Part shown: piece after piece, positions 3-20,023 of the stretch
Layout of the letters: each line of letters opens with the position of its first letter
Numbering within the stretch: position 1 is the stretch's first letter
Source of the DNA: Opitutaceae bacterium
GTDB lineage: Bacteria > Verrucomicrobiota > Verrucomicrobiia > Opitutales > Opitutaceae
Assembly: GCA_002694885.1 (NCBI GenBank)
Contig: NZNM01000020.1
Coordinates: forward strand, 1-50,567
Reading direction: 5' to 3'
Length of the DNA: 50,567 bases
The notes under the pieces: model-generated
Database searches by the model: none
Told to the model about the DNA's origin: nothing
Seen by the model: the letters and a program-made list of their open reading frames with translations, nothing else
Program-made: the position numbers and the translations under genes

Positions 3-1079
3 GAATTGAATTGCTCCAGACCGATGGTTGTAACCGATCAGGGGATAGGATCTGCTGGGCACCTTGATTGCGTCCTGTCTATCTTGGATTCGGCTGGTCT
101 AAAAGCTACCGTATTCGATGAGGTCAAAGAGAATCCGACGAACGCTTGCATGCTTGCCTGCAAGTCGGTCGCGGAGCTGCGCAATATCGATCTGCTGATC
201 GGTCTCGGCGGTGGTAGCAGTATGGATACGGCTAAAGGCTGCAATTTGCTTCTCACTAACGGCGGTCAGATGAACGACTATCACGGCTATGGCAAAGCGG
301 CAGAGCCTTTCTTGCCTTTCTTGGCCATTCCCACAACTTCGGGGACCGGGAGCGAGTGTCAGTCTTATGCACTAGTGAGCGATGACGAAACGCACGTAAA
401 GATGGCCTGCGGCGATGCCAAAGCCTTGGCCAAAATTGCTTTACTGGATCCGGATTTGACTCAGTCAATGCCCCTGCGAGTGGCTCAGCTAACAGGATTG
501 GATGCCTTGGCCCACGCGGTGGAAACGGCCGTATGCTTGTCGCGGAATACCGTCTCCAACATGAACTCCATGGAATCCTTCCGTTTGATAGCTTCGGCTA
601 TTGAATCGGTTGTTGATGGAAGTTCTAGTGACGAAAGCAGGGCCAGCATGCAATTGGGAGCAGCTCTAGCGGGACTCGCGATAGAGAACAGCATGTTGGG
701 AGCTGCTCACGCGACTGCCAATCCCTTGACAGCTCGCTTCGATGTAACTCACGGTCATGCGGTAGCATTGATGCTCCCGCATGTGGTCCGATTTAACCGG
801 GTCGATTCCACGATTAATGAAATCTACGAGAAGTATGAAACGTTGGTCCCCTGGAACGCAGGGGAAGAACGGAAAATGGAATCTTGGTTGGAACGAATCA
901 TTGCCAAAGCGGAACTACCTAGCTTGACGGAACTAGGAGTGAAGGCGTCCGATGTCGAAAGCCTCGCGATTGATGCTGAGCAGCAATGGACGGGGCGTTT
1001 CAATCCGCGACCTGTCTCAATTAAGGATTTTGAAGGGATTTATCAGTCGGCGCTAGGCGCTGTGGGAGCAGGGGTATAG
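3..1079 (+). CDS. Iron-containing alcohol dehydrogenase (5' end cut by window edge)
   Basis: The protein is a group III (Fe-type) NAD(P)-dependent alcohol dehydrogenase, interconverting an alcohol and an aldehyde or ketone in the cytoplasm; the substrate cannot be read from sequence. Numbering from the TTG at position 6, the nucleotide-binding GGGSSMDTAK lies at residues 68-77, TTSGTGSE at 110-117, and the metal ligands are D166, H170, H235 and H249, spaced as in FucO/AdhB. The extra His that FucO has between the last two ligands is Asn here (ATANP). The frame is open to the left edge and about 25-30 residues of the usual N-terminus are missing, so the true start is probably outside the window. 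It overlaps the next gene by one base (TAGTG), so it belongs to that operon and probably supplies a redox step for its product. Confidence 0.9.
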   Translation, partial: ELNCSRPMVVTDQGIGSAGHLDCVLSILDSAGLKATVFDEVKENPTNACMLACKSVAELRNIDLLIGLGGGSSMDTAKGCNLLLTNGGQMNDYHGYGKAAEPFLPFLAIPTTSGTGSECQSYALVSDDETHVKMACGDAKALAKIALLDPDLTQSMPLRVAQLTGLDALAHAVETAVCLSRNTVSNMNSMESFRLIASAIESVVDGSSSDESRASMQLGAALAGLAIENSMLGAAHATANPLTARFDVTHGHAVALMLPHVVRFNRVDSTINEIYEKYETLVPWNAGEERKMESWLERIIAKAELPSLTELGVKASDVESLAIDAEQQWTGRFNPRPVSIKDFEGIYQSALGAVGAGV

Positions 1080-2302
1080 TGAAGAATTTTCAATGGGGTT
1101 TTTCAGCGGATCGGGGTGCCGCAGGAATCAAACTGGGTCCTGTTTGGATGGGCGCAGTGGCAATGCTGCTATCCGCCTGCCAACCGGGAGGTCCGGAAAG
1201 ATCAGAATCAGCCGATGAGAAATCCGGACCTATCACGAAAAGCTGGGCCCTTCCAAGAGGCGATTCAGGCCTGAGCGGGTCTATTCCCGAAGAGATAATC
1301 GTCAATCCGAAGATTGCCTGGACCTTTGAGGCGGGGTCGCCAATTTCTGGCGACGCGGGCGTGTATGACGGATCGGTTTACGTGGGCACTGACGATGGCG
1401 TATTCTTGGCGATCGATTTCGAGAGCGGCCAAGAAATTTGGCGGCATACAGGCGAAGATGTCATCGAGGCAGAACCTGCGATCACTGAAGATTTGGTGTT
1501 TATCGGAGCCAGCGACGGCCAATTCTACGCTTTGGATCGGGAAACGGGCGAGGAGCGTTGGAAAATCCAGCTGGACGACAAGATAACGGCAGGAGCGAAC
1601 TTGATTGATAGTCCGGCAGGAGATGGGCAATGGGTGCTCGTTGCTGGCAATGATGGATTACTGCGATGCTTGCGAGCGGAAGATGGTCAGGAAGTTTGGT
1701 CGTACATGACTGACAACTATATCAATGGCGCTCCGGCCATGCTCGATAATCAGCGGATAATTTTCGGCGGTTGCGACGCCTTTTTGCACATCGTGAACGT
1801 GGAAAACGGGGAAGCCATAGAGCAGTACGAAACCAATGCCTACATTCCCTCCTCGGTGGCTGTGTACGATGGAGTTGGATACAGTGGAAATTACGCCAAC
1901 GAGGTTTTGGCTTTCGACCCGGGAGATCGGGGCGAGCTGTGGGTTTATTCCGATAGGCAGTTCCCGTTTTTCAGCTCTCCAGCTGTAAATGAGGACTTCG
2001 TGTTTATTGGCTCGCGAGACAAGAGGCTTCATGCCATCGACCGTGAGTCGGGCATCGCGGCCTGGGCTTTCCGCACTTCGGGCCGCGTGGACAGTTCTCC
2101 GCTGGCCTTCAGCGATGCGGTGGTTTTCGGGTCAACGGACGGTTGGCTGTACGCCGTCAGCCAGTCAGATGGTCAAGAACTTTGGAAGGTGGAATTGGGC
2201 GAGTCTTTGCTGGCTTCGCCGATTTTCGCGAACGGACGAATCATTATAGGGACGCAAGGTGGTACGCTTTTCTCATTGGAATCAGGGGAGAGCGACGCAT
2301 AA
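1079..2302 (+). CDS. PQQ-type beta-propeller lipoprotein (BamB-like)
   Basis: This 407-residue protein is built from repeated propeller blades of the PQQ/BamB type, seen as recurring 'G..YAvd..sG...W' segments from about residue 75 to the end (for example 'DGSVYVGTDDGVFLAID', 'DGQFYALDRETGEERW', 'KRLHAIDRESGIAAW'). No quinoprotein dehydrogenase active-site features are evident, so a scaffold or binding role is likelier than catalysis. The N-terminus has a hydrophobic stretch ending in LLSAC (Cys34), a lipobox, so it should be a periplasm-facing lipoprotein. The GTG start at 1079 overlaps the stop of the dehydrogenase gene; the in-frame ATG at 1148 would leave an implausibly short signal. It is followed 12 bases later by a radical SAM gene. 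Its role in the cluster is unknown. Confidence 0.85.
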   Translation: MKNFQWGFSADRGAAGIKLGPVWMGAVAMLLSACQPGGPERSESADEKSGPITKSWALPRGDSGLSGSIPEEIIVNPKIAWTFEAGSPISGDAGVYDGSVYVGTDDGVFLAIDFESGQEIWRHTGEDVIEAEPAITEDLVFIGASDGQFYALDRETGEERWKIQLDDKITAGANLIDSPAGDGQWVLVAGNDGLLRCLRAEDGQEVWSYMTDNYINGAPAMLDNQRIIFGGCDAFLHIVNVENGEAIEQYETNAYIPSSVAVYDGVGYSGNYANEVLAFDPGDRGELWVYSDRQFPFFSSPAVNEDFVFIGSRDKRLHAIDRESGIAAWAFRTSGRVDSSPLAFSDAVVFGSTDGWLYAVSQSDGQELWKVELGESLLASPIFANGRIIIGTQGGTLFSLESGESDA

Positions 2303-2314
2303 AAAGGAGCACGT

Positions 2315-3649
2315 ATGAGCAGTAGTGCAGAAGCCGTGGAAACGAAGGAAAAGAAGCCAACTGAGGCGGGCAATTATTTCATATCGAATTATCCGCCATT
2401 CTCTTTCTGGTCTCCGGGCAATAAGAAGGACGTTGAGGAAGCTTTTCAGAACCCCAACGACGACAACTCGAAACTGGGAGTGTATCATCACATTCCCTTT
2501 TGCCGGAAGCGATGTCACTTTTGCTATTTCCGAGTTTATACGGATAAGAACGCGTCGGAGATAAAGCACTACCTTGATACGACTATCCAGGAACTGGAGC
2601 ACTTTGTCAAACAGCCCAGAATAGCGGGCCGAAAGCCTCATTTCGTCTATTTTGGGGGTGGAACGCCATCCTATTTGTCGGGATCGCAGCTGACAGAGTT
2701 GACTGATAGAATGAAGGCAGTGCTGCCCTGGGACGAAGCAGAGGAGGTTGCATTTGAGGGTGAGCCAGGAACGCTCAATCCTCGAAAGGTGAAGGCGATC
2801 AAGGATATTGGCGTAACCCGCCTCAGCTTAGGTATCGAGAATTTCGATGATCGCATCCTCGAGATTAATGGACGGGCTCACAAAGCGCCGGAAGTTTACA
2901 AGGCTTACGACGCGGCGCGCAGTGAAGGTTTTGACCAAATCAACATCGATTTGATCGCCGGCATGCTCGACGAAACAGAAGAGAATTGGCAGCGCAATAT
3001 CGAGGAAACCTTAAAGCTCCGACCAGATAGCGTGACTATCTACCAGATGGAGATTCCTTACAACACAACCATCTATAAAGAGATGAAGGAGTCGGGCGCT
3101 CTCATCGCTCCGGTAGCGGATTGGCAGGTAAAGCGTCGCTGGGTAAAAGAAGCTTTTGAAGCCCTGGAAAGCGATGGCTACACGATTAGCAGCGGTTACA
3201 CCGCTGTTCTCAATCCGGAAAAGACCAAGTTTGTTTATCGCGACGAGCTGTGGACGGGAGCCGATTTGCTTGGTTTAGGAGTGGCCTCGATTTCCCACAT
3301 AGCGGGTGTGCATTACCAGAATGTGAACGAGATCGGTCAATACACCGAGGCGATTGATCGGGGAGAGCTTCCGATTCACCGGGCTTTGAAAACCAGTGCC
3401 GACGAACGTATGATTCGCGAGTTTCTGCTACAGATGAAGTTAGGGAAAGTGGAAGTTGGCTATTTCAAAGACAAGTTTGGGGTAGACCTGATCGGTCGCT
3501 ATGGTGACGAATTGAGAGAACTGTCAGATGAGGGACTGCTGAAGTTCGACGATAGCGCTATCGAGCTCGAGCGGCGGGGTCTTCTTTGCGTAGACAATTT
3601 GCTCTTCAAGTTCTTCTTGCCCGAACACGTGACCTCGCGGATCGTTTGA
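2315..3649 (+). CDS. HemN/HemW-like radical SAM protein
   Basis: A 444-residue radical SAM enzyme of the oxygen-independent coproporphyrinogen oxidase superfamily. The iron-sulfur motif C-x3-C-x2-C is in 'HIPFCRKRCHFC' near residues 60-71, the SAM-binding 'YFGGGTPS' follows at about 110, and a HemN-type C-terminal domain covers roughly residues 315-440. The start is set by a strong AAGGAG 7-12 bases upstream of the ATG. Relatives in this superfamily include heme synthesis enzymes, the heme chaperone HemW, and class C methylases and cyclopropanases of natural-product clusters (NosN, Jaw5 types). The neighbours here (chorismate-lyase-like, halogenase-like, CoA ligase, exporter) favour a biosynthetic role over heme synthesis, but this is inference. 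Confidence 0.88.
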   Translation: MSSSAEAVETKEKKPTEAGNYFISNYPPFSFWSPGNKKDVEEAFQNPNDDNSKLGVYHHIPFCRKRCHFCYFRVYTDKNASEIKHYLDTTIQELEHFVKQPRIAGRKPHFVYFGGGTPSYLSGSQLTELTDRMKAVLPWDEAEEVAFEGEPGTLNPRKVKAIKDIGVTRLSLGIENFDDRILEINGRAHKAPEVYKAYDAARSEGFDQINIDLIAGMLDETEENWQRNIEETLKLRPDSVTIYQMEIPYNTTIYKEMKESGALIAPVADWQVKRRWVKEAFEALESDGYTISSGYTAVLNPEKTKFVYRDELWTGADLLGLGVASISHIAGVHYQNVNEIGQYTEAIDRGELPIHRALKTSADERMIREFLLQMKLGKVEVGYFKDKFGVDLIGRYGDELRELSDEGLLKFDDSAIELERRGLLCVDNLLFKFFLPEHVTSRIV

Positions 3650-3671
3650 AGCAATCGGAGAAGCTGCCTCG

Positions 3672-4235
3672 GTGCGTCAATTGATCCATCCGCTAGTGTC
3701 GATCCTGAGAGAACGTGGAATCGATCCTTCCTCGTTTTGCTGGGTGGACCCAGAGTCGATACCGGAGCCATACCGACGATTGCTTGCTCATGATTCGGAC
3801 ATGACGTCCACCTTGGCCAATTTTCACGATTCCGAGATCGGACTAGAAGTCTTGGCGGAAGAAAGCGACTCTACGGAGTACTGCCGAGAAGTCATTCTCC
3901 TCTCGAAGCGCGACGAAAAGCCGGTGGAGTACGGGGCGATTCAAATTTGGCTGGAAGCGTTTCCCGCTAAAGCGCGGGAGGCGATTACAGAGGGAAAACA
4001 GCCGTTGGGAGGAATTCTCAATCAAATGGATCGCCCTTATCTGAGCAGCCCGCACGGATACTTTTCCATCGCTGCTCCGGAAATTTGTCACAAGCGCTTT
4101 GAATGCCCGAAAGGAGCGACTCTTTACGGGCGGTACAACACTCTCAGCAGCGAAGACGGGCATGAACTTGCATCGATAATCGAAATCCTGTCTCTGGAGG
4201 ATGGCAGGATAGAAAATGAACGGGAAAGTTTATAG
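3672..4235 (+). CDS. UbiC-like chorismate lyase family protein
   Basis: This 187-residue protein resembles E. coli UbiC, which splits chorismate into 4-hydroxybenzoate and pyruvate. The shared path runs through 'LLAHDSDMT' (UbiC LLLEDSMT), 'CREVILL' (UbiC LREILLC), then a short Gly/Pro strand and 'KQPLGGIL' (UbiC KTPLGRYL). R72 matches the product-binding Arg76 of UbiC, and E171 in 'IIEILSL' is the probable counterpart of catalytic Glu155 (UbiC TELFLP). The spacing between PLG and that Glu is about 18 residues longer than in UbiC, so it is a divergent member. GTG start with GGAG about 11 bases upstream. It lies 22 bases after the radical SAM gene. A hydroxybenzoate supply for the neighbouring CoA ligase is the natural reading; chorismate as substrate is not proven. 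Confidence 0.72.
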   Translation: MRQLIHPLVSILRERGIDPSSFCWVDPESIPEPYRRLLAHDSDMTSTLANFHDSEIGLEVLAEESDSTEYCREVILLSKRDEKPVEYGAIQIWLEAFPAKAREAITEGKQPLGGILNQMDRPYLSSPHGYFSIAAPEICHKRFECPKGATLYGRYNTLSSEDGHELASIIEILSLEDGRIENERESL

Positions 4236-4314
4236 AGAGGTTTGGCTCGTTACTTGATCTCCGCTGTCCCACCGACGAAAATGTTGGGTAATGAAGTATT
4301 AGAAGACAAATCTA

Positions 4315-5586
4315 ATGGTAAGCACAAGGACTAAGTCGTACGACGCCATAGTGATCGGTGGGGGGCCTGCCGGTTCGACCGTTGGAACGTTGCTGGCCGA
4401 AAAGGGCAGGGAGGTTGTCATTTTGGAAAAAAGCAAATTCCCGCGGTACCATGTGGGAGAATCGCTGATGCCCTACTGCTATTTTACCTTCGAGCGTCTC
4501 GGAATCGTCGATCAGCTCAACGAACGGGCTTACACCCAGAAGCATAGCGTACAGTTTGTCACCAGTGATGGAAAGATCTCTGCACCTTTTTATTTTTTCC
4601 AGCACTTAGACCATCCAGCTGCCACGACCTGGCAAGTGAAGCGTTCCGAATTCGATGAGCTCATGCTCGACAATGCCCGGGAAAAGGGCGCTGAGGTGAG
4701 GGAGGAAACCCAGGTTGTGGACTTTCTTTACGAAGATGGGCGAGTGGTTGGGGTGGTCGCTGAAAACGCCACTGGCGAACGCTATGAAATAAACGCAGAG
4801 ATTACAATTGATGCCTCCGGGAGAGATGGTGTTTTCCAGTCTAAGAAGAAGTGGCGTCGCCGGGATCCAAAATTGAATAAAATCGCTATCTGGACTTTGT
4901 ACAAGGGAGCGAAGCGGGATTCTGGATTGGACGAAGGGGCTACTACTGTAGCCTACTTGGAAGACCGTGGCTGGTTCTGGAATATCCCCATGCGGGACGA
5001 TATCGTCAGTTCAGGCATAGTCGCTGAACGCGACTATCTCTACAAAGACACTCGAGACCCCAGGGAGATCTTCGAGCGCGAGATCGAAAACAACGTTTGG
5101 ATTAAAGAACACTTATCATGTGGGAAGCAGTTCGGAGAGTACTGGGTAACGGGTGAATATTCGTACCGCTCGGAGCACTGCGCGGATGATGGCATTGTGC
5201 TGGTCGGAGATGCGTTCGCCTTCTTGGATCCGGTCTTTTCGTCGGGAGTATTTCTAGCTCTGAAAAGCGGAGAGATGGCTGCGGACGCTATCGATGCAGC
5301 CTTAGAATCAGGCGATGTATCCGCGAGTCATTTCCAGGATTTCGGTGAACGCCTTTGCCAAGCGATTGAGACGATGCGCACCCTGGTTTACGCATTTTAC
5401 GACAACGATTTCAGTTTTGGAAAACTGATCAAGAAGCATGGCGACCTTCAGGGCACTCTGACGGATTGCTTGATCGGGGATCTTGTCGATAAGGATTATG
5501 AGCCTTTGATGAAGGCGATCGGCGGAATCACCGAGTTGCCAGAACCGTTGTCCCATGGTCGGGCGGCGATCGAGGCCAAAGCTTAG
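4315..5586 (+). CDS. FAD-dependent halogenase-family enzyme
   Basis: A 423-residue flavoprotein of the flavin-dependent halogenase/monooxygenase superfamily. The FAD dinucleotide motif GGGPAG is at residues 15-20, 'FPRYHVGES' at 42-50, 'GDAFAFLDPVFSSGV' at 298-312, and the halogenase hallmark WxWxIP is present as WFWNIP at 220-225. A lysine (K76) sits in the strand after 'NERAYTQ', where the CmlS/PltA-type enzymes carry the catalytic Lys that forms chloramine. It would use FADH2 from a separate reductase, and none is visible in the window. Many relatives in Planctomycetota and Verrucomicrobiota carry this signature without proven halogenation, so it could be an oxygenase or reductase. ATG start at 4315 with only a weak ribosome site. 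Position between the chorismate-lyase-like and glycosyltransferase genes supports action on an aryl substrate. Confidence 0.8.
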   Translation: MVSTRTKSYDAIVIGGGPAGSTVGTLLAEKGREVVILEKSKFPRYHVGESLMPYCYFTFERLGIVDQLNERAYTQKHSVQFVTSDGKISAPFYFFQHLDHPAATTWQVKRSEFDELMLDNAREKGAEVREETQVVDFLYEDGRVVGVVAENATGERYEINAEITIDASGRDGVFQSKKKWRRRDPKLNKIAIWTLYKGAKRDSGLDEGATTVAYLEDRGWFWNIPMRDDIVSSGIVAERDYLYKDTRDPREIFEREIENNVWIKEHLSCGKQFGEYWVTGEYSYRSEHCADDGIVLVGDAFAFLDPVFSSGVFLALKSGEMAADAIDAALESGDVSASHFQDFGERLCQAIETMRTLVYAFYDNDFSFGKLIKKHGDLQGTLTDCLIGDLVDKDYEPLMKAIGGITELPEPLSHGRAAIEAKA

Positions 5587-5612
5587 CGGATTTCATCCCT
5601 TCTCAAAAGGCG

Positions 5613-5631
5613 CCAGTTTTTTACTGGTTTT
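5613..5631 (+). terminator. Weak hairpin with T-run after the halogenase-like gene
   Basis: CCAGT and ACTGG flank a five-T loop and are followed by TTTT, 30 bases after the flavoenzyme stop. The five-pair stem is short, so this may be an attenuator or chance rather than a true terminator. Confidence 0.25.
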
Positions 5632-5716
5632 AAAACGGAATTCGAACATGGTGGATTTCGATTCGGAGATACGTTTCCTTGAGCAAAGCGAAGCGGTTCA
5701 CAATCTCCACTAGCTA

Positions 5717-7033
5717 ATGAAGATCACGTTCTTAACGCCGGGGACAGGGAGCTATTATTGTGGCGCTTGCATGCGCGACAACGCTCTGGCGAACGCGTTG
5801 ATCAAGGATTGCCACGAAGCGGAGCTCTTGCCGATGTACCTTCCGCTTATGTTGGACGAGGACTCGGAAGGGCAGGAGTCCGACTCGCCCGTCTTTTTTG
5901 GAGGCATCAATATTTTCCTGCAGCAGAAGTTATCGGTTTTCAGACGTTCGCCAGAATGGATCGATAAGTTGTTGAACCAGCCGAACCTGTTGCGCTCCGC
6001 CGCCAAGCGTAGCCATATGACCTCAGCCAGAGATCACGGGCAGATGACTTACGAAATGCTGCGCTTGGATGGAGAGGTCTTTGAAAAGGAACTCAACAAG
6101 CTGTATTCATGGATAAAGGACCATGGCGTGCCGGATACCTTTTGCTTGTCCACGGCATTGCAAGCAGGCTTGGCCAAGGAGATCAAAAAGCAATGGGACA
6201 TTCCCGTGATCTGCTATTTCCAAGGTGAAGACTCCTTTCTCGATTCGCTGCCCGATGATTACCGCGATCGCTGCTGGCAGCTAATGGCAGAACGGTGCCA
6301 GGATGCCGATGCGCTTTTGGCTCCGAGCGAATTTTACGCTCGCATGATGGAGCGTCGCCTTGGGATGGATACTGGAAGAATTCGATTGCAGATAAATGGG
6401 ATCAATCTTGACGGTTTTCAGGCGAGCCATGGAGTTAGCGCCCAGCCTCCGGTTATCGGCTATCTGGCCCGCATGTGCGAAGTCAAGGGACTGCCCCTGA
6501 TGATTGACGCATTCATACACCTGAGGAAGCAGCTAGGAAATGATAGCGCCCGGCTGAAAATAGCTGGAGCGATGACCAAAGGCGATGTTGCCCTGGTCGA
6601 ATCGCTAAAGTCGAAATTGGATCGAGCGAATTTAACGGATTCCGTCGAATGGCTGCCTAATATTTCTCGGGATGAAAAACTCGCCTTCTTGAGCAGCCTC
6701 TCGCTGTTCTCAGTACCCGTTCAGTACGAGGAAGCGTTCGGGCTTTATGGCATCGAGGCCATGGCTGCGTCTGTGCCGATTGTTCAGCCGAATGCTTCCG
6801 CCTTTCCAGAAATAATCGAGACGACAGGTGGAGGCGTGTGCGTGGACATCGAGGGACCAGAATCGTTAGCCGAAGCCTGGCAAGATCTCCTCCAGGATTC
6901 TGAACGATTGAAATCCATGGGAGAACAGGGTCGACTTGGGGTGGAGCAATCCTATTCAATGCAGGCAATGAAGGATGCCTTTTTGGATGTTGTGGAATCC
7001 ATGCGACAACCTGGACTTGAAAGCGATGAGTAG
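5717..7033 (+). CDS. Glycosyltransferase family 4
   Basis: A 438-residue GT-B fold glycosyltransferase. The N-terminal domain starts directly with 'MKITFLTPGTGSYYCGACM', a Gly-rich acceptor-side loop, and the C-terminal nucleotide-sugar domain begins near residue 240 ('PPVIGYLARMCEVKGLPLMI'). The EX7E-like donor-binding signature is 'EEAFGLYGIEAMAASVPIV' around residues 335-353. No signal or membrane segment is seen, so it acts at the cytoplasmic face. Start ATG at 5717 comes 130 bases after the halogenase-like gene, and its stop overlaps the start of the thioesterase gene by eight bases (ATGAGTAG), indicating translational coupling. In this cluster it would add a sugar to the aromatic or lipid product; donor and acceptor are unknown. 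Confidence 0.87.
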   Translation: MKITFLTPGTGSYYCGACMRDNALANALIKDCHEAELLPMYLPLMLDEDSEGQESDSPVFFGGINIFLQQKLSVFRRSPEWIDKLLNQPNLLRSAAKRSHMTSARDHGQMTYEMLRLDGEVFEKELNKLYSWIKDHGVPDTFCLSTALQAGLAKEIKKQWDIPVICYFQGEDSFLDSLPDDYRDRCWQLMAERCQDADALLAPSEFYARMMERRLGMDTGRIRLQINGINLDGFQASHGVSAQPPVIGYLARMCEVKGLPLMIDAFIHLRKQLGNDSARLKIAGAMTKGDVALVESLKSKLDRANLTDSVEWLPNISRDEKLAFLSSLSLFSVPVQYEEAFGLYGIEAMAASVPIVQPNASAFPEIIETTGGGVCVDIEGPESLAEAWQDLLQDSERLKSMGEQGRLGVEQSYSMQAMKDAFLDVVESMRQPGLESDE

Positions 7034-7490
7034 ATTGGAGCCGCAACCCCATTGTTTCGAGTATCGGCGCCGCGTGGAATTCGCGGAAACGGATATGGCT
7101 GGCCTGGTCCACTTTTCCAATTTCTTCCGTTATATGGAGACGACGGAGCATGCGTTTTTCCGTTCTCTCGGGCACGGCGTGCACGAAATCGTTGATGGCG
7201 AATCAGTGGGCTGGCCCCGTGTCCAGTCCTCATGCGATTTCTTCAAGCCCATACGCTTCGAAGACCAGATTGTCATCAGGCTCTCCATACAGGAAATTCG
7301 TCGGCGATCCGTCCGCTACCTCTACTACATTTTCAAGGAGGAAGAGTCGGGGGAGACTTTGGTCGCCTCAGGTCGAATTGTCACGGCTAGCGTCCAATTC
7401 AACCGGCAAACGGGAGATATCGAATCAGTGGAAATTCCCGAAGAACTGAACAAAAAGCTGCAAGGGGCCCTGGAGTCCCAGAAGTCTTGA
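7026..7490 (+). CDS. 4HBT-family acyl-CoA/ACP thioesterase (hot-dog fold)
   Basis: A 154-residue single hot-dog-fold thioesterase of the 4-hydroxybenzoyl-CoA thioesterase/YbgC family. The catalytic signature with the acidic residue is 'FAETDMAGLVHFSNFFRYME' near residues 19-38, where the Asp of D-x-x-G-x-V-x-x-x-x-F/Y is the expected nucleophile or base. The start is the ATG at 7026, because residues upstream of it in this frame lie inside the glycosyltransferase and lack family similarity. This start overlaps the previous stop by eight bases. It probably releases or proofreads an acyl or aroyl thioester made by the CoA ligase encoded 600 bases downstream. The pairing of 4HBT, CoA ligase and a UbiC-like protein is what points to hydroxybenzoyl thioesters. 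Confidence 0.85.
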   Translation: MSRLEPQPHCFEYRRRVEFAETDMAGLVHFSNFFRYMETTEHAFFRSLGHGVHEIVDGESVGWPRVQSSCDFFKPIRFEDQIVIRLSIQEIRRRSVRYLYYIFKEEESGETLVASGRIVTASVQFNRQTGDIESVEIPEELNKKLQGALESQKS

Positions 7491-7549
7491 AACGGCCAAC
7501 TTCATTCCCGCAAAAAAACGATTTTTCTGCCTCTAAATTCTAAGCTTAT

Positions 7550-8071
7550 ATGAACTGGTTAATCTTCTCATTAATGACGGCCCTTTGCTTTGGTCTCTAT
7601 GGCATCTTCCTGCATAGCGGCCAAATTTCCATGAAGGATCCTTCGCTGGGTCGGTACAAGGCATTCCTATTTGTAGGGGTTGCCTATTTCGTTATAGCGG
7701 TATTGGTTCCTTTGATACTGCTGAAAGTACAAGGGGCGACATTGAGTTTTCCTGCCAAAGGAATGGGTCTCTCGTTTGTCGCCGGATTGTTGGGAGCCGT
7801 TGGGGCTTTTTGCATTCTGCTGGCTTTCGGGGCCAAGGGAACACCGGCCGCCGTAATGTCCATAGTTTTCGCGGGAGCTCCAGTTGTTAACGCCATCGTT
7901 TCAATGAGCCTACATCCGCCTAAAGGAGGCGTATCCGCTATTCCTTGGCAGTTTGTCTTGGGAATACTCTTGGCGGCCCTGGGCGGTTGCTTGGTTACCA
8001 TGTATAAGCCTGCGCCAGCCGCGGCGGCTAAAGCGAACACGCCGCCAGCTAAGATTGCCAAAGCCGAGTGA
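7550..8071 (+). CDS. Small DMT/EamA-like integral membrane protein
   Basis: A 173-residue hydrophobic protein with about five transmembrane segments: residues 2-20, 40-62, 72-93, 100-118 and 133-152. It ends in a polar Ala/Lys/Pro tail. The layout matches one half of a DMT-superfamily (EamA-type) transporter, so it might work as a homodimer. The ATG at 7550 gives a clean start; the gap to the thioesterase is 59 bases and the next gene begins 9 bases after its stop. It may move an intermediate or the product across the inner membrane, but substrate and direction are not readable from the sequence. Confidence 0.65.
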   Translation: MNWLIFSLMTALCFGLYGIFLHSGQISMKDPSLGRYKAFLFVGVAYFVIAVLVPLILLKVQGATLSFPAKGMGLSFVAGLLGAVGAFCILLAFGAKGTPAAVMSIVFAGAPVVNAIVSMSLHPPKGGVSAIPWQFVLGILLAALGGCLVTMYKPAPAAAAKANTPPAKIAKAE

Positions 8072-8080
8072 AGCATTCGG

Positions 8081-9337
8081 ATGGATCTCGCTGAGAAGCA
8101 ATTGACGGCTCTCAACCAATTGATTGAGGTCGTCGGGTCGAGCAATTCCTTCTACAAAGCCAAGCTGGAAGCTTGCCAGGGAATGGGCGGCTTCGAATCG
8201 CTGGAAGCGTTCTCGGAGCGAATGCCATTCACCACCAAGGCGGAGATAGCGGAAGACCATAAATGCAATCCGCCTTACGGAACGAATCTATCGTATCCAA
8301 AGGGGCAATATACACGCATTCATCAAACTAGTGGGACGACTGGACAGCCGATTGCCTGGCTCGATACCCAGGAAAGCTGGAGCTGGTTGCTCGACAATTG
8401 GAAATTAATTTGGAAAGCCTGTGGGGCCAAGAAGGGGGATGTCGCTATGTTTCCCTTTTCCTTCGGTCCCTTTCTCGGGTTCTGGTCGGCTTTCGAGGCG
8501 GCAGCCCAAGCGGGCATCCGCTGTATTCCAGCTGGAGGACAGACGAGCCTGCAGCGCCTGCAAATGATAAACCGCTACCAACCGGATTGGCTCTGCTGTA
8601 CGCCTACCTACGCCTTGCATCTCTTATCGGTTGCTCAAAAAGAAGGAATCGACCTTTCTAGTGGCCCGGTAAGGCGCATTATCGTAGGCGGGGAGCCGGG
8701 GGGTAGCGTGCCGGAAGTGAAGTCCCGCATAGAAGAGGGTTGGGGCGGAGCCAAGTTATTCGATCATCACGGAATGACTGAAGTAGGCCCCGTAACCTAT
8801 TCAGATCCGGAGCGCCCAGAATTGCTTCGAGCCATCCACGAAACCTACTTTATCGAGGTGCTGGATACGGAATCTGGAAAACCCACCTTGCCAGGGGACG
8901 TAGGCGAACTCATTCTTACCACCCTGGGCAGAGCCGCTTCTCCACTTATTCGATATCGTACCGGCGATTTGGTTAAACCGGTACCTGTTGAAGGCGAGGA
9001 TCCTCGGGCAGTTGCATTCGAGGGAGGCATTCTGGGCCGTTCAGATGATATGGTTGTTGTTCGCGGGGTTAATCTCTATCCTAGCGCCATTGATGCGGTC
9101 ATTCGTTCGTTCGACGGTATTGGAGAGTATCAAGTCCATATTGATGAAAAGGAATCCATGGTGCAAGTAGCGGTAACAGTAGAAAACCTATCTGCGGCTG
9201 GCGATGATGAGCTCGCTAATCAGGTGCAGAAACGAATGCGGGAAGTGTTCGGTTTGAGGATACAGATAGAAATTGGTGAGTCCGGAAGCCTGCCAGCCTT
9301 CGAAATGAAGGCCAAACGCTGGAATGTTTCGATCTAA
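8081..9337 (+). CDS. PaaK-like aryl/phenylacetate CoA ligase family protein
   Basis: A 418-residue member of the phenylacetate-CoA ligase branch of the adenylate-forming enzymes. It shows the AMP-binding loop 'HQTSGTTGQP' near residue 86, the A5-type motif 'HHGMTEVGP' near 228, 'YRTGDLV' near 295 and a C-terminal small domain with 'GRSDDMVVVRGVNLYPSAID'. These enzymes activate aromatic acids to acyl-adenylates and then to CoA thioesters; some load carrier proteins instead. The length is normal for the PaaK branch (about 400-440). It lies 9 bases downstream of the small membrane protein gene. With a UbiC-like protein in the same run, hydroxybenzoate or a derivative is the likeliest substrate, though this is inferred from context. 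Confidence 0.85.
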   Translation: MDLAEKQLTALNQLIEVVGSSNSFYKAKLEACQGMGGFESLEAFSERMPFTTKAEIAEDHKCNPPYGTNLSYPKGQYTRIHQTSGTTGQPIAWLDTQESWSWLLDNWKLIWKACGAKKGDVAMFPFSFGPFLGFWSAFEAAAQAGIRCIPAGGQTSLQRLQMINRYQPDWLCCTPTYALHLLSVAQKEGIDLSSGPVRRIIVGGEPGGSVPEVKSRIEEGWGGAKLFDHHGMTEVGPVTYSDPERPELLRAIHETYFIEVLDTESGKPTLPGDVGELILTTLGRAASPLIRYRTGDLVKPVPVEGEDPRAVAFEGGILGRSDDMVVVRGVNLYPSAIDAVIRSFDGIGEYQVHIDEKESMVQVAVTVENLSAAGDDELANQVQKRMREVFGLRIQIEIGESGSLPAFEMKAKRWNVSI

Positions 9338-9366
9338 GAGAGTCTCTAAATGAGGAACTTAAGCGC

Positions 9367-10041
9367 ATGATAGAAATCGAGCATCTGATTAAACGGTATC
9401 CAGGCCCGACGGGAGACATTACAGTATTAGACGACCTGGAGCTTTCGGTGGCGAAAGGGGAATCCGTAGCCATCGTCGGACCCTCCGGATGTGGCAAGAC
9501 TACCTTGCTCAATATTCTGGGCACCCTGGACACAGCGACAAGCGGTAGCGTATCCATTGCCGGGCAAGCCCTTGACACGATGAACGACGAAGATCGGATT
9601 CGTTTTCGAAATCAGTCCTTGGGATTCGTTTTTCAGCAGCATTTCCTCCTGCCCCAGTGCACGGTGATGGAGAATACCATAATGCCGCGACTCGCAGGGG
9701 GTTGGGAAGAGAGCGAGGAAGATACGAGATCTCGAGCGACGTCGCTGCTTGAAGAATTGGGGCTCAAGCACCGAATTGACCACATGCCGTATCAGCTTTC
9801 TGGAGGCGAGCGTCTTCGGGCTGCAGTAGCAAGGGCTTTGGTCAATCGTCCATCTATCGTTCTGGCCGACGAGCCAACCGGTTCACTCGATCCCGCTATG
9901 GGAGAACAAGTAGCCGACCTATTCGCCAGTTTGAATCAGGAGCACGGGGTGACTTTGGTAACGGTAACTCACAACGAAGCCTTGGCCGACCGGATGGGTA
10001 CTAAGTACGAGCTGAACAAGGGAAAGCTCGTCAGTCCTTGA
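9367..10041 (+). CDS. LolD/MacB-type ABC transporter ATPase
   Basis: A 224-residue ATP-binding subunit of the LolD/MacB/YbbA class. Walker A 'GPSGCGKTT' is at residues 38-46, the Q-loop is 'GFVFQQHFLLPQ', the signature 'LSGGERLRAAVARAL' lies near 140, and Walker B with catalytic Glu is 'IVLADEPTGSLDP'. This class drives mechanotransmission permeases that extract lipoproteins or lipids from the outer leaflet of the inner membrane or push out periplasmic substrates. The permease gene follows after 180 bases that contain a palindromic repeat, an unusually wide gap for such a pair. It is probably the exporter ATPase for the product of the cluster. Confidence 0.92.
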   Translation: MIEIEHLIKRYPGPTGDITVLDDLELSVAKGESVAIVGPSGCGKTTLLNILGTLDTATSGSVSIAGQALDTMNDEDRIRFRNQSLGFVFQQHFLLPQCTVMENTIMPRLAGGWEESEEDTRSRATSLLEELGLKHRIDHMPYQLSGGERLRAAVARALVNRPSIVLADEPTGSLDPAMGEQVADLFASLNQEHGVTLVTVTHNEALADRMGTKYELNKGKLVSP

Positions 10042-10102
10042 GATATGGTGATCAAGAGAAACGTCCAGAAAGTATGGCATTAGTTGATCAAGTATGCGCA
10101 AA

Positions 10103-10175
10103 GGTAGGGCCGACTGTCCCTAGCTTTTTCCGGCTCAAGTTGCGATTCGGCTGCTTAGGGATAAGCAGCCCCACC
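10103..10175. repeat. GTAG...CTAC-type palindromic repeat, copy 1 (73 bp)
   Basis: The unit begins GGTAGGGCCGACTGTCCCTAG and ends with a perfect hairpin (GGCTGCTT, six-base loop, AAGCAGCC at 10149-10170) plus CCCACC. The first 21 bases match the inverted end of the copy at 16117-16191 at 19 of 21 positions. It sits between the ABC ATPase and permease genes. Two hairpins bounded by GTAG-like ends resemble REP doublets that are spread by RAYT transposases. Confidence 0.65.
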
Positions 10176-10221
10176 ACAAGGGAATCGGGACCCAGCATAT
10201 CACTATTAGACGTGTGCTCCC

Positions 10222-13200
10222 ATGCAGCTAAAGTTCCTAGTTAACAGCCTCTGGCACTATAGAAAGTCGCACCTGGGCGTGCTTGCCGGGACGGTTGTGG
10301 GCGCCACTGTCCTACTAGGGGCTTTGTTTGCCGGGGATTCCGTTAGTGGGGCCCTCAAGCGGCTCGCTTCGCTGCGAGTTGGGCAAGCGGAGTATTTGCT
10401 CACGGTGGGAGACCGATTCGTACGAGAAGACCTTTCCAGCGACCTGGAACGTGGCTTAGGGATCCCAGCGGCGCCTGCATTGATGCTTCGAGGAAGCGCC
10501 TCTCGGTCGGATCGAGACTTGCTCGCGCCCAATGTTCAGGCCCTAGGAGTAGATGCCCGATTTTGGAGTTTTTCTCCATCGCCCGATGGAGGCCCGGATT
10601 TCGAGAAAGCCAATGCGGTTGCAGTCAATCAGCGACTAGCGGACCGTTTGCAGCTTGAGGTTGGCGATGCGTTTGTGCTTCGCATCGAAAAACCGGGTCT
10701 GCTCTCGAGGGATGCGCCGCTATCGGGCAGCAAGGACAACGTCATAGGGATTCGGGTAACGGTGTCGGATATTCGTAGCGACGACCAGTATGGTCGATTC
10801 AGCCTGCAGGCAAATCAGATATCGCCATTTACGGTATTCGCCCCCATCGAGTGGATACAGGATCAGATCGAACGAAAAGACCGGGCCAATTTGATTCTCT
10901 TGGGCTCGAGAGGAGGTGGCGAGCCGGTTGATGACGGGGAGTTTCTCTCCAGTATTGAGCCCTATTTGACCTTAGAAGATTATGGGCTGTCGACGGTGGA
11001 TGTGCCGCTGTCGCAATCCACCGAGATTAGCAGCGAGCGGGTTTTCATAGATGAAGCTATTGTCGCCGCCGTTCAGTCGAGCGTGTCCGAGGTTCAACCA
11101 GTAATCACTTATTTGGCGAATACCCTTCGCGTGGGCGAAAAGGAAACGCCGTACTCGATGGTGACTGCTGCGGGCCAGAATGCGGCTCCCTTTTTGGGGA
11201 GCGATCTGGATTCAAGTGAAGCGACGATAACCAGTTGGCTGGCGGATGATTTGGGGGCTGAAGTAGGCGACTCCTTGGATCTGTCTTACTACGTAATCGA
11301 TGAATCTAGCGAACTGGTAGAGGAGACGACATCCTACACCATTAGAGCCGTTCTGCCTCACGAAGGTTTGGTAGCGGATCAGCTGTGGATGCCGGATTTC
11401 CCTGGCGTAGCCGGTGCGGAAGATTCTGCCGACTGGGATGCCGGAATGCCATTAGATCTGGATAGAATTCGCGAGAAGGACGAGGACTACTGGGACGACT
11501 ACAAGGGCGCTCCGAAAGCGTTTATCTCCCTGGAAACAGGGGAGCAAGAATGGGCTAACCGTTGGGGAGTATACACCGCTTTGCGTGTCCCGACTGAGGC
11601 GCTAGGCAAGGAAGCGTTGAGAGCCTCGGTATTGTCTCAACTGGATCCTAGAATGATTGGGGCCCGAACGCTCCCGTTTCGGAAAACGGCGTTGGATTCG
11701 GCAGTGTCGCCAGTGGATATTGGAGGCCTATTCATCAGCATGAGTTTCTTCCTGATCGTCGCGTCGCTGAGCTTAGTGGCCATGCTCTTCAGCTTTTCTA
11801 TGCAGCAAGTGAATCGGGAAAATGCCTTGCTGGTGTCCTTGGGTATCGGTCCCAAGAGGATCGGTTGGTGGCGGCTGCTCAGTTCATTCATAATTGTTCA
11901 TGTTGGAACACTGCTGGCATTGCCATTAGCAGCTGGATACACTTGGGGCATCTTGAGATTTCTGGAAACGATCTGGAGCTCAGACTCGACTGGATCCTTG
12001 TTCGCGTTCCAGGCCTCTTCTCGAACGATCGCGATTGGGGTATTGGCGAACATGGTTTTGGCCTTAGCCACGATTTGGTACACGCTGCGCAGGCAGAGTA
12101 AAACCCAAGCGAGCTTCCGTTTGCAGCAAGGGTCCGAAGAAACTGTTTTGGGGCAAAATCGGAAGCGAGGGCTTTCTCTGATCGTTGGAATTTGCGGTAT
12201 CGTTTTTGGCGGCGTCACTCTGATCCTATCCCTGCTTCAGATGCTCCCCATCCAAGTAGGCTATTTTCTAGCCGGATTCTGCTGGCTCATTGGAGGTATC
12301 GGGATCTGCGCATCGAGGATTGGGTTGGATCGGGGATCTAAAGGATCCGCCATCGATGCCACCCGTGTTGGCCGATTGAACAATGGTCGGCGTCCGATGC
12401 GAAGCTTGACCGTGGTCGGCACCTTAGCCTGTGGCGTTTTTCTGGTGGTGTCGGTTGCCGCTTTTAGAAAAGAGAAAGATACGAGTGGCAATGATCCGAA
12501 AAACGGATACGGTGGATTCTCATTTTGGGCGGAAACGTCGATTCCCTTGAGCGATCCGGCAGACTACTCGGGACCGGACAATCTCTTCGATGTCGCGTCC
12601 GACGAAGCGATCGCGGCAATTCGCATAGGTGAAGGGGATGACGCCAGCTGTTTCAATCTCAATCAAACCGCCAATCCACGCTTGCTGGGGATGTCATCAG
12701 ACTATTTCCAGGAACGAGGCGCTTTTACCTTTCACTCGATTCGTGAAGGCCTAGACGCTAGCCAAGGTTGGAATTTGTTGAAGGCGGATACGGACTCGGA
12801 GGCCATACCAGCCTTTATCGATAGCGCCACGTTGCAGTGGGCTCTGAAGCGAAAGCTAGGCGATCGGCTCACTTACACGGACAGCGCTGGGCGGCCGTTT
12901 GAAGTGGAGCTCGTGGGGGCCATAAGCGATACGGTTTTCCAAGGCAGCATTCTTATTGATGAGAGAGCATTGCTGGAAAAGTACCCGCAGCATGAAGGTT
13001 ACCAGCTTTTCTTGATCGATGATTGGGGAGGCAGTCTGGATCAACGAAGGGCTCAGCTAGAATCCTGGTTGAGCCCCTGGGGAGGACAAGTCGAGATCGC
13101 CTACGACCGCCTGCAGGCTTACCATGAAGTAGAGAACACCTACATCGCCATCTTCCATGTTCTGGGAGGTCTCGGTGTCATTCTGGGCAGCGCGGGATTG

Positions 13201-13521
13201 GGTGTGGTGGTGGCTCGGAATCTCTCTGAGCGCAGGCATGAGTTTGCCTTGCTCGACGCCATAGGTATTCCCAGCACGGTTCGAAAGAAAATCGTTTTTT
13301 CGGAGTTGCGTTCGCTTGTCGGCTGGGGCGTTGGTGTAGGGCTGTGCGCGGCAGTTGTATCCATCATCCCTTCCATGAGCCATCTAGGAGTGGCCGCGCC
13401 GGTGTTTAATCTTTCACTGCTGATCGTAGCCATCCTGCTCAATGCCGCTTTCTGGTCCTACATCGGCTACCGCGGTAACGCCCCCGTAGTCGCTGACCTG
13501 CAGCGAGACTTCGAGTCTTAG
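10222..13521 (+). CDS. Large FtsX/MacB-type ABC transporter permease
   Basis: A 1099-residue permease with two FtsX-type modules. TM1 is at residues 20-40, followed by a long periplasmic region of about 450 residues. Then come three or four TM segments near 505-640, two TM segments near 655-700, a TM near 725-740, a second periplasmic region, and a final set of TM segments near 970-1090. It is larger than E. coli YbbP (about 800) and LolC/E (about 400), mainly through the first extracytoplasmic domain. The start ATG at 10222 follows the repeat. Together with the upstream LolD-type ATPase it should form an exporter or extractor for a lipid-like product. It is the last gene of the run. Confidence 0.85.
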   Translation: MQLKFLVNSLWHYRKSHLGVLAGTVVGATVLLGALFAGDSVSGALKRLASLRVGQAEYLLTVGDRFVREDLSSDLERGLGIPAAPALMLRGSASRSDRDLLAPNVQALGVDARFWSFSPSPDGGPDFEKANAVAVNQRLADRLQLEVGDAFVLRIEKPGLLSRDAPLSGSKDNVIGIRVTVSDIRSDDQYGRFSLQANQISPFTVFAPIEWIQDQIERKDRANLILLGSRGGGEPVDDGEFLSSIEPYLTLEDYGLSTVDVPLSQSTEISSERVFIDEAIVAAVQSSVSEVQPVITYLANTLRVGEKETPYSMVTAAGQNAAPFLGSDLDSSEATITSWLADDLGAEVGDSLDLSYYVIDESSELVEETTSYTIRAVLPHEGLVADQLWMPDFPGVAGAEDSADWDAGMPLDLDRIREKDEDYWDDYKGAPKAFISLETGEQEWANRWGVYTALRVPTEALGKEALRASVLSQLDPRMIGARTLPFRKTALDSAVSPVDIGGLFISMSFFLIVASLSLVAMLFSFSMQQVNRENALLVSLGIGPKRIGWWRLLSSFIIVHVGTLLALPLAAGYTWGILRFLETIWSSDSTGSLFAFQASSRTIAIGVLANMVLALATIWYTLRRQSKTQASFRLQQGSEETVLGQNRKRGLSLIVGICGIVFGGVTLILSLLQMLPIQVGYFLAGFCWLIGGIGICASRIGLDRGSKGSAIDATRVGRLNNGRRPMRSLTVVGTLACGVFLVVSVAAFRKEKDTSGNDPKNGYGGFSFWAETSIPLSDPADYSGPDNLFDVASDEAIAAIRIGEGDDASCFNLNQTANPRLLGMSSDYFQERGAFTFHSIREGLDASQGWNLLKADTDSEAIPAFIDSATLQWALKRKLGDRLTYTDSAGRPFEVELVGAISDTVFQGSILIDERALLEKYPQHEGYQLFLIDDWGGSLDQRRAQLESWLSPWGGQVEIAYDRLQAYHEVENTYIAIFHVLGGLGVILGSAGLGVVVARNLSERRHEFALLDAIGIPSTVRKKIVFSELRSLVGWGVGVGLCAAVVSIIPSMSHLGVAAPVFNLSLLIVAILLNAAFWSYIGYRGNAPVVADLQRDFES

Positions 13522-13615
13522 GATCAACTAGGGCCAAGATAATCGGGTATTCATTTCGGGCCGAACCGTAGCCGACCTGGAAGGCCAGATAGAGATCGGA
13601 GATGTCAATCGTCCA

Positions 13616-13686
13616 GGTGGTTCTGGAACAAGACAATCAATAGTGTAATTTTAATCTATGTGGCCGTTCGGTGATCGGCCGCTACC
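13616..13686. repeat. GTAG...CTAC-type palindromic repeat, copy 2 (diverged, 71 bp)
   Basis: The unit starts GGTGG followed by a small GTTC/GAAC hairpin and ends in a GGCCG/CGGCC hairpin and GCTACC. Its length and end structure match copies 1 and 4, but the interior has drifted, so membership is less certain. Confidence 0.4.
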
Positions 13687-13710
13687 TTTCGTGTAACAAT
13701 AGAGATTACG

Positions 13711-13728
13711 ATGTATCTATCAATACAT
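13711..13728. promoter_or_regulatory. 18-bp dyad upstream of the SDR gene
   Basis: ATGTAT and ATACAT flank CTATCA, a perfect 6-6-6 dyad in AT-rich DNA 160 bases before the SDR start. It could be an operator for a GntR- or LacI-like regulator; no regulator gene is in the window. Confidence 0.3.
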
Positions 13729-13887
13729 TACAATATGGATAAAATTTAGCGCCAACCTGCTCCCGCGGCTGCGGGATCCAGCGAATTGGCGAAGCTGATG
13801 AGCGATGTTAAAACAATTCTCAAATTATCCTTAATCTTTCCGGGATAGGCTATTGCCATTCCCGATGCGCCCTTCTACACCGGTTTT

Positions 13888-14691
13888 ATGTCATCGGAAA
13901 ATGTATTTGAACGTCTCTATTCGCTGAAAGGCAAGCGGGCTCTGGTCACTGGCGCAAGCAGCGGAATTGGCCAGGCAATCGCAACCTGCTACGCGGAAGC
14001 GGGGGCGACGGTAGGCGTGCATGGGACCAATGAGCAGAAGATTGCCGATACCGTTCAGTCGATTACTGACCGTGGCGGAACCGCGATTCCACTGAAACAG
14101 CCGCTTGCCAGTAAAGCTGATTCGGAAGCCCTGATTGCCCAGGCTGTAGAAAAACTCGGTGGAATCGACATACTGGTCAACAATGCTGGCACCAATCGGC
14201 GAGAGCCTGCGGTTGACGTGACAGAAGAGAATTTCGAAGCCATCATGTCAGTCAATCTCGACTGCGTATTCTGGCTCTGCCAAGCGGCTTATCCGCACTT
14301 GAAGAATTCAGAATGTGGCAAAGTTCTGAATACAGGATCGTTAACGACCCTGACGGGTATAGGAGGTATTTCGGTTTACGGGATGACCAAAGCGGCGGTT
14401 GGTCAATTGACGCAAACCTTGGCGCTGGAATGGGCCAAAGATAACATATGCGTGAATTGCCTGGCTCCCGGATTTATTCGCACCCCATTGACGGAAGCGG
14501 GCCTGTTCAGCGATCCTCAAAAAGTCGCTTTTTTGGACGACCGTATTCCCATGAAACGAGGTGGCGTGCCGGAAGAGCTAACCGGTATGGCATTATTTCT
14601 GGTGGGGCCAGGATCTTCTTACACGACGGGACAAACGTTCGCGGTGGATGGCGGATTTCTGGCCGGCGGATCTTGGCTAGATCGAGAGTAG
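13888..14691 (+). CDS. SDR-family oxidoreductase (gluconate/KduD-like)
   Basis: A 267-residue classical short-chain dehydrogenase. The cofactor loop TGASSGIG is at residues 21-28, NNAG near 97-100, and the catalytic Ser with Y-x3-K is at 'SVYGMTKAA' around 158-166. 'APGFIRTPLT' and a C-terminal 'FAVDGGFLAGG' complete the family pattern. The closest recognisable style is 2-deoxy-D-gluconate 3-dehydrogenase (KduD) or gluconate 5-dehydrogenase, which act in uronate and ketogluconate breakdown. Start is the ATG at 13888. A uronate role would fit the myo-inositol oxygenase 10 kb downstream, which makes glucuronate, but the link is only contextual. Confidence 0.85.
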   Translation: MSSENVFERLYSLKGKRALVTGASSGIGQAIATCYAEAGATVGVHGTNEQKIADTVQSITDRGGTAIPLKQPLASKADSEALIAQAVEKLGGIDILVNNAGTNRREPAVDVTEENFEAIMSVNLDCVFWLCQAAYPHLKNSECGKVLNTGSLTTLTGIGGISVYGMTKAAVGQLTQTLALEWAKDNICVNCLAPGFIRTPLTEAGLFSDPQKVAFLDDRIPMKRGGVPEELTGMALFLVGPGSSYTTGQTFAVDGGFLAGGSWLDRE

Positions 14692-16004: not shown

Positions 16005-16116
16005 AGCGTTTAACCTTCTGAAATGGGTTCCGTTGGTCTGAGAGCAAGGCAACGCAAAAGTTCCGGGATTTCGAGCCTAATTGCGTTTCTTGTTTGTGAA
16101 TGTACCCTCGGATCGC

Positions 16117-16191
16117 GGTAGGCTTGTTGGTCCTCAAATAGCTGCAACAAAGCGCTCCTATTCCGACCGACTAGAGACAGTCAGCCCTACC
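16117..16191. repeat. GTAG...CTAC-type palindromic repeat, copy 4 (75 bp)
   Basis: It starts GGTAGGC and ends with GACTAGAGACAGTCAGCCCTACC-type sequence; read in reverse, the end matches the first 21 bases of the copy at 10103-10175 at 19 of 21 positions. It lies between two propeller genes. Confidence 0.6.
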
Positions 16192-16227
16192 ATAATACCT
16201 CTCAGTTTATGTCAGATTTAATTCTAA

Positions 16228-17661: not shown

Positions 17662-17700
17662 ATCGTTTGTCTGAATACTCGGCTTTATTGGTTGAGTCAC

Positions 17701-17722
17701 TCACATACGGAAATGGATGTGA
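17701..17722. promoter_or_regulatory. Dyad between divergent propeller and receptor genes
   Basis: TCACAT and ATGTGA are separated by ten bases, about midway between the two divergent start codons. A second small dyad (GGGA AAA TCCC) lies at 17757-17767. Either could be a shared operator; no regulator is nearby. Confidence 0.25.
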
Positions 17723-17803
17723 AATGTAACGAATTGTCCTTTTTCGTTGTTTGAGTGGGAAAATCCCTTCAACTACACCACTTTCTACAACCTATTCTCT
17801 ATA

Positions 17804-19852: not shown

Positions 19853-19933
19853 TTAAGGCTAAAGGAGTAAGGCGTAAGGTTTAATTTTTCCTTTCGTAAT
19901 GCGGAGCGTCAGCTCGCGTTTTCGGTTTCAGCA

Positions 19934-19993
19934 GTAGCACAGGCATCTTGCCTGTGTACTTTCCATCGGACACAGGCTGGAAGCCTGTGCTAC
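19934..19993. repeat. REP-like double hairpin (CACAGGC/GCCTGTG, 60 bp)
   Basis: GTAG is followed by CACAGGC-ATCTT-GCCTGTG (19938-19956), a 14-base spacer, CACAGGC-TGGAA-GCCTGTG (19971-19989) and CTAC. Each half is a perfect 7-bp hairpin, and the outer arms (11 bp, GTAGCACAGGC with GCCTGTGCTAC) can also pair to form one long cruciform. GTAG at the foot of a hairpin is the hallmark of RAYT-mobilised REP elements. It lies between the convergent receptor and propeller genes. Confidence 0.8.
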
Positions 19994-20023
19994 CTTGCGC
20001 GCGCTAAAGCATCGCGCTACGCG

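Follow-up and report, generated by a model that had tools for sequence, protein, structure and literature searches.

A probable flavin-dependent halogenase of an Opitutaceae bacterium keeps company with radical SAM and chorismate-lyase-like genes

There is demand for flavin-dependent halogenases as tools for halogenating C-H bonds selectively. The nearest precedent that we found for a chorismate lyase together with a flavin-dependent halogenase is a bromophenol pathway that we call Bmp5/Bmp6-type. In this pathway, the 4-hydroxybenzoate for a flavin-dependent halogenase comes from a chorismate lyase (PMC10579414). A review describes Bmp5 as lacking the WxWxIP motif, and states that the Fx.Px.Sx.G motif lines the tunnel in flavin-dependent halogenases (PMC8407142). 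In the literature, WxWxIP is suggested to prevent monooxygenation or hydroxylation (PMC8407142; PMC10696468), and a further paper mentions halogenases of Verrucomicrobia within a clade of tryptophan halogenases (PMC6644159).

The DNA considered here, which we refer to as the window, is a stretch of 50,567 nucleotides from an Opitutaceae bacterium (contig NZNM01000020.1, forward strand). It carries on the plus strand, at 4315-5586, a complete open reading frame (ATG to TAG, 423 codons) for a flavin-dependent halogenase-type protein of 423 aa, hereafter HAL; we likewise use CL for a chorismate-lyase-like protein (3672-4235) and rSAM for a radical SAM protein (2315-3649). The original prediction had assigned to HAL the WxWxIP signature, as WFWNIP at residues 220-225, and a lysine at residue 76, and both were found at these positions. 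A six-frame translation of the window contains a single WxWxIP, whereas 200 base shuffles gave 0.065 on average. HAL also has the FAD motif GxGxxG, as GGGPAG (residues 15-20), and the tunnel motif FxxPxxSxG, as FLDPVFSSG (residues 303-311). We examined conservation in two alignments, A1 (the window HAL plus 18 proteins; 19 rows) and A2 (the window HAL plus 47 proteins from the best 80 of 581 related loci; 48 rows). K76, W220, W222, I224 and P225 are invariant in both (19/19 and 48/48 rows), as are the GGG stretch and FxxPxxSxG; in A2, G15, G17 and G20 as well as F303, P306, S309 and G311 are each present in 48/48 rows. The best Pfam family for HAL is Trp_halogenase (104.7 bits; cut-off 21). 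Its best NCBIfam match is the CmlS model NF033113, at 203.4 bits, far under the equivalog cut-off of 900; we read HAL as a relative, not as CmlS proper. A plasmid search for HAL matched 213 records, all with less than 60% identity, and no close relative was found on these plasmids.

An AlphaFold2 model of HAL, built from the 48-protein alignment, has a mean pLDDT of 91.8. The nearest solved fold is that of FasV (8zop; Z 50.0, rmsd 2.0 over 386 residues), followed by Bmp2 (Z 48.5), PltA (47.5), ChlB4 (47.3) and Mpy16 (47.2), with 3nix (46.6), CndH (44.4), RadH (42.9) and CmlS (37.3) lower in the list; the model superposes on all of these at 1.9-2.9 Å. K76 is aligned to the equivalent lysine in FasV, CndH, CmlS, ChlB4, PltA, Mpy16, Bmp2 and 3nix, which agrees, by alignment only, with the suggestion that it is the candidate catalytic lysine. 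The proposed check on whether K76 sits near the end of the flavin tunnel came out favorably, if indirectly, the aligned lysine lying in a model that superposes this closely; on the alignment, K76 would be the catalytic lysine at the tunnel end. A maximum-likelihood tree of 51 rows (midpoint root for drawing only; some branches long) places HAL inside a 48-row group (support 96/95) with all 8 halogenase-kind references, of which Bmp2 joins weakly (88/78, on a long branch). WxWxIP and FxxPxxSxG are present in 49/51 rows; both are missing from Escherichia coli FixC, and the 3nix piece stops short of them. A lysine occupies the K76 column in 51/51 rows; since this includes FixC, the column alone does not discriminate. 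The phylogeny called for in the original prediction thus groups HAL with the halogenase-kind references and not with FixC, and the claimed kinship with CmlS/PltA-type enzymes, acting on phenols, pyrroles or carrier-bound acids, is borne out by sequence, predicted fold and tree. On the same three grounds, the assignment of HAL to the two-component flavin-dependent halogenases of the phenol/pyrrole/carrier-bound kind, and not to FixC/geranylgeranyl reductases, holds, and HAL is probably a genuine, active halogenase of this known kind.

Other halogenase-like genes were seen in related genomes. Weaker HAL-like proteins (29-35% identity) occur in other genomes of the order and group separately in the tree; those at loci L023-L032, about 31-35% identical to HAL, have the same motifs and form their own branch. 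Two f33 genomes have an extra halogenase-like gene, 27-28% identical (L137, from 11099; L141, from 7643 and 10341), close downstream of the 51% homologue, and genome G261 has a third halogenase-like gene, 33% identical, on the opposite strand.

The company that HAL keeps was surveyed in 387 genomes of the phylum, with limits of our own choosing (E 1e-90 for HAL, 1e-60 for rSAM and 1e-10 for CL) applied to the top candidates of each genome (4 for HAL and rSAM, 8 for CL), such that a weaker homologue would escape. HAL was found in 19 of the 387 genomes, rSAM in exactly those 19, and CL in 17 of them and in none of the 368 genomes without HAL. The corresponding Fisher values are 1e-32 and 9e-28, and treat as independent genomes that are related; it is fairer to say that the same seven families contain both HAL and rSAM. 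In the window's genus, HAL is present in 11/11 genomes searched. Moreover, the three genes co-occur without being adjacent: in six f33 genomes (G154, G261, G264, G273, G291, G307) rSAM and CL lie together but on another contig than HAL, and in G036 about 20 kb separate rSAM and CL from HAL on a single contig, within a cluster where glycosyltransferase, thioesterase and ligase genes are found as well. That the three genes occur together even where they are not neighbors speaks for a common pathway.

Where the genes are linked, the arrangement is nearly constant. We compared the best 80 of the 581 related loci, which were picked by HAL similarity, a choice that favors conserved context, and counted neighbors by tblastn (at least 45 bits, on HAL's strand, within 11 kb). 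By this count, CL is present in 77 loci, rSAM in 74, a thioesterase in 61, a glycosyltransferase in 59 and a ligase in 38; the ORF caller undercounts in GC-rich contigs, giving CL in 61 loci (window included) rather than 77/80. Both rSAM and CL lie directly upstream of HAL, in the same direction, in 63 of the 65 loci whose upstream DNA exceeds 2.5 kb, the exceptions being L074, without rSAM, and L120, without rSAM and CL. By their titles, these best 80 loci are mostly from Verrucomicrobiota, with five from Armatimonadota/Chthonomonadaceae and two from Planctomycetota/Phycisphaeraceae. The order rSAM, CL, HAL, thioesterase is found in 4/5 Armatimonadota-labeled contigs (L128, L129, L130, L132), and the ligase comes next in three of these four. 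Thus, we define a radical-SAM/chorismate-lyase/halogenase module, which occurs also in contigs labeled Armatimonadota and Planctomycetota, and the near-constant company of rSAM and CL points to a pathway. Among open-licence papers, as represented by their titles or the openings of their abstracts, we found no description of this module, and the pathway around HAL is apparently undescribed.

The substrate of HAL is suggested by CL (3672..4235, plus strand; 187 aa), which the original prediction had called chorismate-lyase-like. The window protein has no Pfam or NCBIfam match, and 33 CL members matched only 7 families at chance level, none of them chorismate lyase; a search of PDB sequences with the CL profile likewise gave no chorismate lyase (best E 1.9, an alginate lyase). 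The relation is visible only by fold and by direct comparison with E. coli UbiC. The CL model (pLDDT 92.5) matches the DUF98 protein 2nwi (Z 17.1) and UbiC (1g81; Z 12.6), and in hhalign CL pairs with UbiC with a probability of 87.7 (E 3.4e-6), including the PLG and GR stretches. Since UTRA sensor domains share this fold at Z 12.4-13.2, tying with UbiC, the fold alone does not prove CL to be a lyase. UbiC has an active-site Arg and Glu. R72 of CL pairs with a UbiC Arg in hhalign, and R72 and E171 are both identical in 33/33 rows of the CL alignment (A3), with E171 outside the part aligned by hhalign. The chorismate-lyase-like label is thus upheld by predicted fold and UbiC profile match, and chorismate lyase is the likeliest reading of CL from model and sequence. 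Because CL has the predicted fold of chorismate lyases, a 4-hydroxybenzoate-type substrate for HAL is plausible.

An intact CL is missing from 3 of the 19 HAL genomes: it is broken in G010, by two internal stops and a frame change (L035:11402-12200), and was not found in G005 and G417. All three retain HAL and rSAM. Thus, either HAL does not strictly need a linked lyase, or the CL losses are recent. In G010 (L035) and G005 (L037), both of the window's genus, HAL and rSAM are intact around the broken or undetected CL; stops also lie within the matched stretch of CL in G308 and of HAL in G389.

From 6 to 14691, every gene of the window lies on the plus strand, and no gap exceeds 366 bases. The window begins with the contig, inside a gene (1-1079) for an iron-containing alcohol dehydrogenase whose N-terminus is cut by the contig start (6..1079; a counterpart in 34/80 related loci), followed by a PQQ-repeat (BamB-like) beta-propeller protein (1079..2302; 48/80) and the HemN-like rSAM (2315..3649), with the CxxxCxxC cysteines C63, C67 and C70 in 22/22 rows. 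Downstream of HAL come a GT4-family glycosyltransferase (5717..7033; 59/80), a 4HBT/YbgC-like thioesterase (6975..7490; 61/80) that overlaps the preceding gene as called, its start being uncertain, and a 173-aa hydrophobic protein (7550..8071; 51/80), which matches no Pfam or NCBIfam family and is, by reading only, a putative membrane protein. These are followed by a PaaK/FlxY-like AMP-forming acid ligase (8081..9337; 38/80), an ABC transporter ATPase, "LolD" by reading (9367..10041; PF00005, 120 bits; 35/80), and an FtsX-type ABC permease (10222..13521; PF02687, 31.1 bits; 29/80), all likewise on the plus strand. Further downstream, at 14775-21433, three PQQ-repeat (BamB-like) genes surround a gene with a TonB-receptor plug domain. 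Upstream DNA of relatives has PQQ-repeat proteins, a sodium/solute symporter, an aldehyde-dehydrogenase-family protein and an AMP-binding-like protein (under the Pfam cut-off). The HAL cluster has no flavin reductase gene; PF01613 is present in 16/20 HAL genomes and was not found in the window's own genome (97% complete), which has one FMN_red protein.

We considered that the cluster might be tied to aryl polyene synthesis. Neither a ketosynthase gene nor a carrier protein gene was recognized in the HAL cluster. Four ketosynthase matches were found in the window's own genome. On contig C129 (L157, G000), ketosynthase, SDR and lipid-A-acyltransferase-family genes adjoin at 1030-4206, possibly a lipid or aryl polyene cluster. 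When we searched for this ketosynthase in 40 genomes, 20 with HAL and 20 without, copies of at least 50% identity were found in 6/20 genomes with HAL (own included) and 1/20 without; G009, G022, G350, G389 and the six f33 genomes had only weaker copies. The ketosynthase does not track with HAL, and we rejected it as a required partner.

What these data show is the family, fold and motifs of HAL and the co-occurrence of the three core genes; from them we infer catalysis, substrate, order of steps and product as follows. By analogy with its family, reduced FAD supplied by an unlinked reductase would react behind the WxWxIP strand with O2 and a halide, either chloride or bromide, and the resulting hypohalite would pass down the FLDPVFSSG-lined tunnel to Lys76, which would halogenate an aromatic ring. 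This ring would most likely be 4-hydroxybenzoate, made from chorismate by CL, and it may be halogenated free or as a thioester that the acid ligase would make and the 4HBT thioesterase release. The constant partner rSAM probably changes the carbon skeleton, for instance by methylation, and in some species the glycosyltransferase and ABC pair would complete and transport the product. Taken as a whole, this scheme, in which HAL halogenates a 4-hydroxybenzoate-type ring in concert with CL, rSAM, ligase and thioesterase, is the one we favor, with moderate confidence. Counting against it are the three genomes that keep HAL and rSAM but have no intact CL, the loci L074 and L120 with their missing partners, the lack of flavin reductase and recognized carrier protein genes in the cluster, and the tie of UTRA sensor domains with UbiC in the CL fold comparison.

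If HAL were instead a flavin monooxygenase of the halogenase fold, it would hydroxylate or otherwise oxidize the CL/rSAM product without halide, for example towards a quinone-like cofactor. The constant pairing with rSAM and CL across whole lineages is as reminiscent of basic metabolism as of an antibiotic pathway, p-hydroxybenzoate hydroxylases appear in the HAL fold list (Z about 34), and habitats in the record titles of relatives include groundwater, ponds and the sea. Set against this are WxWxIP and FxxPxxSxG, which no row of A1 or A2 lacks, the former being the motif suggested in the literature to prevent hydroxylation (PMC10696468; PMC8407142), and we consider a monooxygenase unlikely. 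Less likely still, HAL may halogenate a substrate unrelated to CL, such as a carrier-bound pyrrolyl or tyrosyl group, with the neighborhood shared for other reasons: as far as residue 406, the C-terminal part of HAL aligns with PltA and ChlB4, which are carrier-dependent, and CL is lost or undetected in 3/19 HAL-keeping genomes, but the restriction of CL to HAL genomes (17/19, against 0/368 others) includes the unlinked cases, and the cluster has no recognized carrier gene. That HAL is a geranylgeranyl-reductase or FixC-like oxidoreductase is highly improbable: TIGR02032 (GG-red-SF) gives it 135.1 bits, under the cut-off of 158.8, and although the geranylgeranyl-reductase-like fold 3oz2, like p-nitrophenol 4-monooxygenase, reaches Z 35.5, only 1.8 below CmlS, it lies 14.5 Z units below FasV, and FixC, without WxWxIP, falls outside the HAL group of the tree together with two 27-28% paralogues.

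What is new here is the HAL/rSAM/CL co-occurrence module; the kind of enzyme that HAL represents is already known. Other halogenation pathways are not known to have such a radical SAM enzyme as partner. The clade is large (581 related loci), its tie to a chorismate-lyase-like gene predicts a substrate, and the pairing lends a working role to three genes that are unnamed or loosely named in family libraries. We suggest, tentatively and at somewhat less than even confidence, that the product of the module is an undescribed hydroxybenzoate derivative, halogenated (or halogenase-processed), and a standing metabolite across whole Verrucomicrobiota lineages that is shared with Armatimonadota and Planctomycetota; it may serve as a signal, as a redox mediator or in membranes, and not as an occasional antibiotic. 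The product could be sought directly in hosts that are named to species and strain, among them Chthoniobacter flavus Ellin428 (L112) and also Haloferula rosea KCTC 22201 (L076).

Xanthomonadin/arcuflavin and flexirubin aryl polyene clusters share with the HAL locus a chorismate-derived hydroxybenzoate and an AMP ligase (PMC3949708); the ligase of the HAL cluster matches FlxY at 129.5 bits, under the cut-off of 520. In contrast to those clusters, the HAL cluster has no ketosynthase gene. Compared to the Bmp5/Bmp6-type pathway, which uses a P450, the HAL cluster has a radical SAM protein, a ligase, a thioesterase and a glycosyltransferase; moreover, HAL has WxWxIP and Bmp5 is reported not to (PMC8407142), so that HAL is not of the Bmp5 type. 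Among solved structures, the Cytophaga hutchinsonii flavoprotein 3nix resembles HAL in fold (Z 46.6), in the lysine and, in the N-terminal part of the sequence that was compared, in a TWQV stretch; it counts against our reading that this protein is among the closest solved relatives, since it too carries the lysine and its record assigns it no established function. FasV (8zop), Bmp2 (5bva), PltA (5dbj), ChlB4 (7fco), Mpy16 (5buk), CndH (3e1t) and CmlS (3i3l) share with HAL the lysine, WxWxIP, FxxPxxSxG and a near full-length fold (Z 37-50). HAL is 27-32% identical to these seven solved halogenases in structural alignments and forms its own clade, and, unlike them, it is partnered with radical SAM and chorismate-lyase-like genes.
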